Shown here: positions 13,537 through 16,955 of the stretch, in pieces
Numbering within the stretch: position 1 is the first letter of the stretch
How the letters are laid out: every line of letters begins with the position of its first letter
DNA from: Candidatus Thalassarchaeaceae archaeon
GTDB taxonomy: Archaea; Thermoplasmatota; Poseidoniia; Poseidoniales; Thalassarchaeaceae
Direction of reading: 5' to 3'
Assembly: GCA_023700245.1 (NCBI GenBank)
Contig: JAJPRE010000007.1
Span: forward strand, 1-64,000
DNA length: 64,000 nucleotides
Translations under genes and position numbers: made by a program
The notes under the pieces: model-generated
What the model was told of the DNA's origin: nothing
What the model saw: only the letters and a program-made list of their open reading frames with translations
Databases searched by the model: none

Positions 13537-15138
13537 ATGGGAAAGCACCACGCTGGAGATCGAAGAATAATTACTATCAGTTTACCAGAAGATATTGCTA
13601 AAAAACTAGATTTAAATGTCGGCAAGGGTAAAGATACTGGACGTTCAGCAACTATTTGTAAAATGATTTCCGAATCATTAGACTCTAAAATTCCAAAGTT
13701 AGTCAAAGTAAATGATATATCTTCTATAAGTCCTAAATTAGTCATTGGTAAAGTAAGAGAAGAAGTTGATACTATGGGAATAGTTGAAGTGCCCGCAGAT
13801 CGATATTATGGAGCACAAACTGCAAGATCTTTGATAAATTTCAAAATAGGTGATGATATAATGCCTCGATCAATAATAAGGGCATTTGGAATATTAAAAC
13901 AATCAGCAGCTGAAGTTAATATTGAGCTGGGAGAATTAAATTCAGGAATTGGTAAATTAATAGTCAGTACCTGTGATGAGGTCATATCTGGAAATTTAGA
14001 TGATCACTTCCCTCTCCGTATTTGGCAAACTGGTTCTGGTACTCAAACAAATATGAATGCCAATGAAGTAATTGCAAATAGGGCAATTGAAATGGTCAAC
14101 GGCGTTTTAGGAAGTAAAATACCTGTACATCCAAATGATCACGTCAATATGGCGCAATCAAGTAATGATACATTTCCAACTGCTATGCATTTAGCTGCAG
14201 CAGAAGAAATTTATCATAAATTATTACCTTCGGTAAGATCTATGAAATCTGAACTTGAAAAAAAAGTAATTGAATTTGATGGTATTATAAAAATTGGACG
14301 CACGCACCTTATGGATGCAGTTCCATTAACTCTTAGCCAAGAATTTAGTGGATATGTTGCTATGCTAAATGCAGATATTACTAGGATTGAATTTATATTA
14401 ACTGATCTATTTGAATTGGCCCTAGGTGGGACCGCAGTAGGAACTGGATTGAATTCCCATCCTGATTTCGCAAAGCATGTCGCTATAAAAATGGCAGAAA
14501 AAACAGGACTTCCATTTGAAACAGCCAACAATAAATTTGCTCAATTGGCAGCACATGATGCAGTAGTTTCAGCATCTGGGGCATTAAACACACTATCAGT
14601 ATCATTAATGAAGATTGCAAATGATATACGTTGGTTAGCATCTGGTCCGCGCTGTGGATTTGGTGAACTATCTCTCCCAGCTAATGAACCCGGATCTAGC
14701 ATAATGCCAGGCAAAGTAAATCCTACACAAGCCGAAGCAATGACGATGGTTTGTTGCCAAGTTATGGGTAATAATTCTGCAATATCTATTGGAGGAAGCC
14801 AGGGTAATTTCGAATTAAATGTTTTCAAGCCAATGATGATACATAATCTTCTTCACAGCATCAATCTCTTATCCGATTGCTGTACTTCATTTACAAATAA
14901 TTGTATTGTTGGTATTACTGCAAACAAAAGCCAGATAAGTAACCATCTTGAAAACTCTTTAATGTTAGTTACAGCGCTAAATTCACATATTGGATATGAT
15001 AATTCAGCCAAGATAGCCAAACATGCACATAAAAACAACTTGACATTAAGACAAAGTGCAATTAAGTTAGAGCTCTTAACTGACAAACAATTCAATGATT
15101 GGGTAGTTGCTAAAGAAATGACAGGGCCAAAAAAATAA
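13537..15138 (+). CDS. fumC: Class II fumarase with N-terminal ribbon-helix-helix-like extension
   Basis: 533 aa. From about residue 70 this is an ordinary class II fumarase (fumarate to L-malate, TCA cycle): [14 protein letters not shown], the [14 protein letters not shown] segment, [13 protein letters not shown] and the [11 protein letters not shown] signature near residue 385. Class II enzymes are about 460 aa, so the first ~70 residues are extra. They read as a ribbon-helix-helix (CopG/Arc-type) unit: a strand RRIITISLP, a helix EDIAKKLD, then [15 protein letters not shown]. The frame is uninterrupted. ATG 13537 is the start; the only internal ATG in position would give a protein starting MGIVEVP, slightly short for the family. 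The upstream region is very AT-rich with TATA-like stretches. Confidence 0.93.
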
Positions 15139-15175
15139 AATAATATTGGGCAAAGATAACCAAGTTGGGAGCAAC

Positions 15176-15209
15176 AGAGAACAACACCTATGGGGGGGCG
15201 TTGTTCTCT
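15176..15209. repeat. Perfect 10-bp inverted repeat with G7 loop
   Basis: The arms AGAGAACAAC (15176-15185) and GTTGTTCTCT (15200-15209) are perfect complements around a 14-base loop that contains seven consecutive G. Flanking GGAG and CTCC could extend it through an internal loop. It lies just after fumC. On the minus strand the following bases become T-rich inside the fumC end, so it could end a minus-strand RNA. Confidence 0.7.
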
Positions 15210-15273
15210 GATTACTCCGCAGGGTCTGGTTCCATTTTGGTCATAAGACGGTTAATTTTCCCAGGTAGCTACT

Positions 15274-15300
15274 AATAATCCGCTAAGGATTATTTTGTTT
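15274..15300 (+). terminator. Terminator-like hairpin with T-rich tail
   Basis: An 8-bp perfect stem AATAATCC/GGATTATT with a 5-base loop is followed by TTGTTT on the + strand, the layout of an intrinsic terminator. It may end transcription from fumC, 135 bases upstream, or form part of the RNA structure of this region. Archaea mostly terminate on U-tracts alone, so the role is uncertain. Confidence 0.4.
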
Positions 15301-15533
15301 GATGTTTCCATCTTTTCCGACTTTTGATAAATTACTTTTTCATTTGCCGTTTTTGTTTCTATTACCAATTCTCACAGGTTCTTTTCACAAAACTAGTACC
15401 ATTACACTCCACGATTTTATTCGCGCTCGCTTTTGCGTGTTTCTCTTTCAATTTTACTTGATTGTTCCCCACGACACAACTCAGGATTGTCTCCTCCCCC
15501 TTCTTGTGTGTACCTCTACGGTATGGTATCTGA

Positions 15534-15576
15534 TTCGGTTTTGTTTTCCCCGCCTAAACGTTCGGTTTTGTTTTCC
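15534..15576 (+). repeat. 16-bp direct repeat TTCGGTTTTGTTTTCC x2
   Basis: Two exact copies of TTCGGTTTTGTTTTCC start at 15534 and 15561, a 27-base period, inside the pyrimidine-rich gene-free region. Function is unknown. They could be repeated binding sites or a structural element of a minus-strand RNA, where they read GGAAAACAAAACCGAA. Confidence 0.8.
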
Positions 15577-15878
15577 TCAGCCCCTGTTATTTATTTTTCC
15601 ATTCTTTCGTTTGGATATTTCCACTTCAGTTCTACCGCCATCTCAATCACCCACAGGTGATCTCGACTATTGCCTCGATCTCTTTTCAGAAATCGATTTT
15701 ACTGCCCCAAATTTGAGGCTCGGTTTTTGTGGCCCGCGGATAAGCCGAAGCGCATCCACACCACTCCCTCGGAGCAGCAAGGCAAATAGGAAGATGCCCG
15801 ACTTTTAAATGTTTCGGCAATAAAGCCGCAGTACACTGGAAATGCCCCTCCAATTACGTTAATTTCCACTGAAATTTT

Positions 15879-16955
15879 TTAATCACGAAGTTTTCTTATT
15901 CTCTCTTTGAGCAGTGCCCTCTTTTCATCATTTACTACTAATTTATTTGAGGATTTCAAGCGACGATTCAATACCCTTTCTTCGATTAAGAAAATTTTAC
16001 CTTCCGAATCGCCAAGGACTAAAATTTCACCATACCTTTTCATTTTTCTTATTCTTGAATTATGTTTTATATGATATTTTAATACTCCTGAATCAACATC
16101 AATTATGCTAATTTTGGAGTTAGTTGTCCAAGTCGAAACCCATAAACAATCAGTACTCTCAATCAATGGCCCACTGATAATTTTATCTATAATCCCGTTA
16201 ACATTATACTCCCAATTATTTTCTTTTGAGTATATCATTCCAGATTCCAGTCCAATAACCATATCTTTCATAACTTCTATTACCTTTACCGAAGAATCTC
16301 CTATTTTTACTTCGTTAATTTCATCTTTGTTTAATACTGTAATCAATCCATTACTATGCCCAAGGTAAATAATTTGATCCTTTTTAAATCCCGTTGTAAT
16401 TGGATTTTTATTTTTTAATGATACATATTCGACTTTTTTGCCGGGTGTAATTTTCCCATATCCGCATTTGGGTCTACTAAGTCCTACGCATACCCCATAT
16501 TTTGTTGAACAGAAAAACCACGGCTTACCCTCTATAATCCACTTTTCTAAAATTTTTCCATTTTGATCCAAATGCCATATTATTGATTCAGAATAATTAG
16601 AAATATGCAGGTCATATATTGAGGAACTAACCCAAATATCACCATTATTCACTTGGACAAAATCACTCAAACCTTCCAACTTTAAACTCCATAAAATTTT
16701 TCCTTTTAACAAATCAATTGAGTGCACATTACCTTCCTCAGTCAAGTATATTTTTTTTCCAAAAATAATTAATTCTGAACATGGACCTTCAAACTTATTC
16801 CTCCATTTCTCAATTCCTGAATTTATAGACCAACAAATCAATAATCCTTCTTTTGAACCGACTATGAGATAATCATCATGACTACTAATTACTGTACATT
16901 CACTATTCAAATTACGTACAAATGAAGAGATATCTTCTAATCTCATATATTCCAT
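15879..16955 (-). CDS. Beta-propeller (PQQ/WD-like repeat) protein
   Basis: 358 aa built from about seven repeats of roughly 40-45 residues with the pattern '..YLIVGSKEGLLICWSINSG..' and '..ILVLGDSEGKIFLI', typical of PQQ-like or WD beta-propellers. A basic tail (residues 330-358) ends RALLKERIRKLRD. There is no signal peptide, so it is probably a cytoplasmic scaffold. The ATG start has a ggggtca site. It is 23 bases downstream of the carboxypeptidase gene on the same strand, so the two may be one transcript. I cannot name a specific function. Confidence 0.75.
   Translation of the reverse strand: MEYMRLEDISSFVRNLNSECTVISSHDDYLIVGSKEGLLICWSINSGIEKWRNKFEGPCSELIIFGKKIYLTEEGNVHSIDLLKGKILWSLKLEGLSDFVQVNNGDIWVSSSIYDLHISNYSESIIWHLDQNGKILEKWIIEGKPWFFCSTKYGVCVGLSRPKCGYGKITPGKKVEYVSLKNKNPITTGFKKDQIIYLGHSNGLITVLNKDEINEVKIGDSSVKVIEVMKDMVIGLESGMIYSKENNWEYNVNGIIDKIISGPLIESTDCLWVSTWTTNSKISIIDVDSGVLKYHIKHNSRIRKMKRYGEILVLGDSEGKIFLIEERVLNRRLKSSNKLVVNDEKRALLKERIRKLRD

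Follow-up and report, generated by a model that had tools for sequence, protein, structure and literature searches.

Ornate large RNAs with little or no known function, of which OLE, ROOL and GOLLD are examples, have been described from bacteria and phages. Members of these families form RNA-only assemblies (PMC12286853). A smaller RNA, Tan1 (Thalassoarchaea ncRNA 1), comes from marine archaea: it is reported as a 229-nt transcript of Ca. Thalassoarchaea, abundant in a Red Sea metatranscriptome, unknown and with a 'complex secondary structure', whose BLASTN homologues are 75-79% identical (PMC5069720). The locus described here resembles OLE, ROOL and GOLLD in its length of several hundred nucleotides, its elaborate covarying structure and the lack of a known function, but differs in being archaeal, chromosomal, syntenic and single-copy, and in having an archaeal promoter of its own. 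The RNA matches none of the Rfam models (4227 families), those of OLE, ROOL and GOLLD included; we propose that it is unrelated to them by descent and merely analogous.

The locus is a gap of 740 nt (15139-15878) in the window, that is, the whole stretch of 64,000 nt that was analyzed, and is flanked by convergent genes, fumC on the plus strand and a PQQ/WD-like gene on the minus strand. The next largest gap measures 192 nt (counting ORFs of 60 aa or more, except those wholly inside the 15139-15878 gap). The first-pass annotation had picked out this interval as the only long gene-free stretch of the window, hairpin-rich, with locally raised GC, a purine-rich minus strand and a BRE/TATA-like element (15804-15816) facing into it on that strand, and had suggested that it may encode a non-coding RNA. 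These observations hold. GC content is 42.6% against 35.5% for the window, purines make up 62.5% of the minus-strand transcript across the gap, and the minus strand folds at -180.8 kcal/mol compared with -144.0 for shuffled sequence (z = -6.5; more stable than 20 of 20 dinucleotide shuffles). The promoter element is present at 15802-15817 and the strand had been named correctly. The features of the locus are as follows.

13537-15138, plus strand: fumarase C gene (fumC), the downstream convergent neighbor of the RNA gene
15163-15785, minus strand: large structured ncRNA gene, resting on full-length homologues of 555-928 nt, a 5′ covariance model and covariation
15166-15220, minus strand: 3′ terminal module, GCGGAG, a long stem with a C-rich apical loop, then CUCCCA, from comparative alignment
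15260-15272, minus strand: start of the 3′ domain, GUAGCUACCUGGG
15532-15576, minus strand: twin motif GGAAAACAAAACCGAA / GGGGAAAACAAAACCGAA, within the variable middle
15728-15737, minus strand: GCGGGCCACA, near-invariant in core Thalassarchaeaceae genera
15736-15761, minus strand: second hairpin, GUGUGGAUGCGCUUCGGCUUAUCCGC, from the consensus structure
15760-15778, minus strand: 5′ hairpin P2, GCUGCUCC-GAG-GGAGUGGU, supported by covariation
15802-15817, minus strand: BRE/TATA promoter element, CCGAAACA plus TTTAAAAG, equally spaced upstream of 67 extracted RNAs
15834-15843, minus strand: upstream box B, ATTTCCAGTG, conserved in promoters of both families
15862-15871, minus strand: upstream box A, CAGTGGAAAT, inverted relative to box B
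15879-16955, minus strand: PQQ/WD-like beta-propeller protein gene, the upstream neighbor, ending ∼60 nt ahead of the BRE/TATA element

The RNA measures ∼619 nt between its outermost conserved elements, the first helix at 15781 and the end of the 3′ module at 15163. Its start at ∼15785 is inferred from the position of the TATA element, and its 3′ end may extend into a U-rich stretch at ∼15125-15160.

The region is non-coding. Comparison within the genus revealed 1-nt indels, a flat periodicity of substitutions and no frame that is kept open. The 169-aa TTG-started ORF at 15299-15808 (plus strand) is spurious: it lacks codon periodicity, contains single-base indels and varies in length among relatives. 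Other antisense ORFs were likewise rejected as coding, stop codons being rare in the antisense because the sense RNA contains little U (8-21%).

The annotation had also named a comparison with sister genomes, in search of compensatory changes, as a means of checking its suggestion. BLASTN with the minus strand returned matches in 22 of 59 relatives, nearly full-length at 76-96% identity within the genus and partial in other genera. The covariance model R1, derived from A2 and covering the 5′ domain, scores 143.5 bits at 15639-15781. Of 244 genomes in the order it matched 88, in nearly every case only once; these matches are strong in seven genera (g1, g4, g6, g8, g9, g10 and g11) and weak yet consistent in g3. 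Gene order is the same in every genus examined: an M32 carboxypeptidase, the PQQ/WD gene, the RNA and then, on the opposite strand, fumC. A search anchored on the neighbors found a slot of ∼0.9-1.1 kb in g2, g5, g7 and several genera of the other Poseidoniales family, which we infer to be Poseidoniaceae. A model of the 3′ domain (R2) matches these slots on the expected strand, and a model of the 3′ terminal module (R3) gives strong matches in g2, g3, g5 and g7 together with the sister-family genera g15, g17 and g22. All 11 sampled genera of Ca. Thalassarchaeaceae (MGIIb) and three sister-family genera carry a single-copy, syntenic homologue in this intergenic slot. R3 gave no match beyond the order when 293 genomes of the phylum were searched, under strict filters that may miss weak matches. 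The common ancestor of Poseidoniales probably already possessed the gene.

Several sister-family genera lack the RNA. In one such genome (G043; L119, G043:C100) the stop codons of the two neighboring genes abut; in another (G037; L115, G037:C14) an apparent protein gene occupies the slot. Either, then, the RNA is dispensable in part of the order, or it has moved or diverged past detection in the genera that lack it. The RNA was found twice in one MAG (G059; L069 and L070), where one copy sits on a 3.3-kb contig; this probably reflects a mixture of strains rather than a paralogue. Chance matches to unrelated bacteria turned up in a pattern scan of genome contigs, and archaeal records alone were used. 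Viral origin was rejected: there were four pattern matches in IMG/VR, none of which contained the RNA as judged by model.

Upstream of the RNA the minus strand carries a BRE, CCGAAACA (15817-15810), and a TATA element, TTTAAAAG (15809-15802). The TATA element stands ∼25-30 nt ahead of the first helix in every one of the 67 extracted copies, although extraction itself demanded an upstream TTTA. Further upstream the two boxes form an inverted TGGAAA pair, which in core genera reads CAGTGGAAAT and ATTTCC(A/G)(G/C)TG, and in the remaining genera is TTTCC-NNN-GGAAA-like. Across 1.28 Mb of its own genome the composite of box A and box B was found at this gene only, and not upstream of the RNase P or SRP genes. 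This suggests a regulator dedicated to the twin-box promoter.

Full-length copies number 67, with lengths of 555-928 nt; together with additional loci they supplied 45 divergent copies from the core family, for an alignment based on sequence alone. The RNAalifold consensus comprises 152 pairs, with 90% of cells paired as opposed to 36-43% when partners are slid. Changes on both sides were found in 100 of the consensus pairs (695 cells), compared with 17-28 pairs (67-100 cells) in eight column-shuffled alignments refolded in the same way, and the consensus energy is -269 compared with -106 to -127 for the shuffled alignments. The structure was picked on the same alignment on which it was scored, a circumstance that the refolding of the shuffled controls was meant to offset. 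The antisense mirrors most pairs, as expected, but with a poorer score (-223). Covariation in these same-slot homologues thus lies far above controls, and the RNA meets the description of a 'large ornate ncRNA': several hundred nucleotides, non-coding, with a structure backed by covariation.

Helices with good support include the two 5′ hairpins, one that encloses the opening section of the middle, and the stem at the 3′ end. P2 is preserved across genera by exchanges such as G-U/A-U/G-C and C-G/U-A/U-G, and all six pairs of the middle-enclosing helix (columns 142-147 with 260-265) covary. For the 3′ module, compared across genera of both families, pairing stands at 97.9%, against 31-56% with partners slid by 1-3 columns; six pairs have changed on both sides, the GGAG and CUCC ends are invariant, the stem covaries and the C-rich loop is present in both families. 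In 11 of the 12 genus groups the tetraloop cUUCGg is 3-16 fold more frequent than in shuffled sequence. Two predicted long-range helices between the 5′ and 3′ parts remain unproven, with no both-side change in the 45-copy alignment; the pairing of GCGGGCCACA with GGACCC in the 3′ domain is only a prediction, without covariation to support it. Manual attempts to pair the two ends in a simple way, or to place the C-rich loop in a pseudoknot, gave nothing that covaries across all genera.

The middle of the RNA is variable. A 16-nt GNRA hairpin, YYGGA-C-GNAA-G-GAA-RR, occurs there in 1-7 copies per RNA in five core genera and g2. Tandem duplications were also observed. In g7 (L112:396-824) a 207-nt block of the middle is duplicated at 95% identity; in g3 (L113:896-1478) it is the 3′ part with its terminal module, in copies spaced ∼325 nt of which the second has 92-93% identity, and double R3 matches of this sort appear in G077, G163, G205 and others.

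Together these data make it close to certain that the gap holds a genuine structured ncRNA gene on the minus strand, as had been suspected. Homology, synteny, strand, conserved promoter elements, the absence of coding and a secondary structure kept by compensatory change are matters of observation; transcription of the locus has not been shown. The function of the RNA is unknown. Our best guess, inferred by analogy and held only tentatively, is that it acts as a structural scaffold. A dedicated regulator bound to the twin TGGAAA boxes would drive transcription from the TATA element at 15802-15809, and the RNA would fold with its conserved 5′ and 3′ parts as a core about a purine-rich middle that can expand, acting in trans as a scaffold, alone or with proteins, and not as a messenger, guide or cis-regulator. 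Conserved ends combined with a middle that grows by modules suit, in our inference, a scaffold more than a guide or an enzyme, and modular growth through hairpin copies and through the g7 and g3 duplications would fit a multivalent one. A single figure that strikes a compromise between confidence in the gene and confidence in the scaffold is 0.75.

It is possible that the locus is the full-length gene of Tan1, published as a shorter piece, a reading compatible with a scaffold-forming ncRNA gene and one that we hold to be nearly evenly balanced. The two are alike in lineage (Ca. Thalassoarchaea and Thalassarchaeaceae being the same), in unknown status, in complex structure and in the similar identity of their homologues. 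They differ in size, Tan1 being 229 nt compared with ∼620 nt here and 555-928 nt among full-length copies. Without a sequence comparison, we can say no more than that Tan1 may be part of this RNA. A scan for conserved intergenic sequence over about half of the genome revealed no other obvious unknown structured RNA of Tan1 size, and its other yield consisted of tRNAs, small proteins and fragments with too little signal to classify; the strength of this argument is limited, however, as sequence under ORFs of at least 90 aa was masked and the comparison genome was only partly covered.

Three other intervals of the genome deserve separate mention. One (L332:17751-18397, on G000:C1) is a stretch of 647 nt that holds no ORF of 90 aa, is 74% conserved in G007 and has codon-like periodicity; it probably represents a coding gene with a frameshift or break, or else an error of assembly. 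The others (L300:6128-6328 and L297:11404-11596) are short conserved intergenic sequences with strong hairpins and no clear codon periodicity, possibly small RNAs, small ORFs or terminators.

Protein sequestration of the CsrB/RsmZ type, in which GGA-bearing hairpins would bind an RNA-binding protein and a regulator would bind the upstream boxes, is unlikely. The RNA is purine-rich, carries 16-71 GGA per copy and has a hairpin module of variable copy number, and its dedicated upstream inverted repeat is a further likeness to CsrB/RsmZ. However, no CsrA was found in the genome (a MAG, 82% complete), GGAA is merely 1.1-2.1 fold above shuffles, and conservation is strongest at both ends rather than in the repeats. 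The GGA-bearing module itself ranges from 0 to 7 copies, and the pattern YYGGA-C-GNAA-G-GAA-RR did not recover it in g1, g3, g5, g7 or the sister family. The RNA is also larger and more structured than CsrB/RsmZ.

The exposed C-rich loop of the 3′ hairpin raises the question of whether the RNA acts by base pairing in trans with G-rich targets. The loop is kept in both families while the stem beneath it covaries, but a conserved architecture of 600-900 nt far exceeds what such pairing needs and the loop may pair within the RNA; we regard the idea as improbable. There is very little to recommend a cis-acting 3′ UTR or terminator of the PQQ/WD gene, or an element antisense to fumC. The RNA does always lie between these genes, on the PQQ/WD strand; its own conserved TATA element and boxes, however, stand between the stop codon and the RNA, G043 retains both genes without it, and the conserved RNA stops short of the fumC coding region.

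The search of covariance models (Infernal/Rfam) that had been named as a further check yielded no family at cut-off anywhere in the window and nothing credible at relaxed E-values, where microRNA- and sRNA-like matches are attributable to chance; no tRNA or tmRNA was matched in the window either. The earlier failure to recognize RNase P or SRP landmarks was well founded, the true copies lying intact elsewhere in the genome: archaeal RNase P RNA (RF00373, 227 bits) at G000:C22:15113-15404 and archaeal SRP RNA (RF01857, 125 bits) at G000:C20:42616-42928. For neither family does the locus contain a match over the gathering score, and a resemblance to SRP helix 8 noted by eye at the 5′ end was dropped, given these copies. 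The RNA is like both in being a stable structured archaeal RNA, but has no similarity to either. Its size and complexity would suit a ribozyme or a much diverged RNase P, MRP or SRP RNA; such an identity is nonetheless very improbable, with RNase P and SRP encoded elsewhere and no Rfam match.

A structured RNA gene whose product may serve as a scaffold is thus the reading we retain. Should this be the first archaeal family of ornate large RNAs, lineage-specific, forming its own RNA or RNP assembly, growing by duplication of modules and transcribed from a dedicated promoter, a claim that we make with considerable reserve, its presence in two families of Marine Group II would make it a new family at the level of Rfam and a conserved target for structural work. 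Marine Group II are among the most numerous archaea of the surface ocean, and if the locus is Tan1, the RNA would also be one of the most abundant transcripts of these archaea. Its loss in some sister genera offers a natural comparison for finding its partners.
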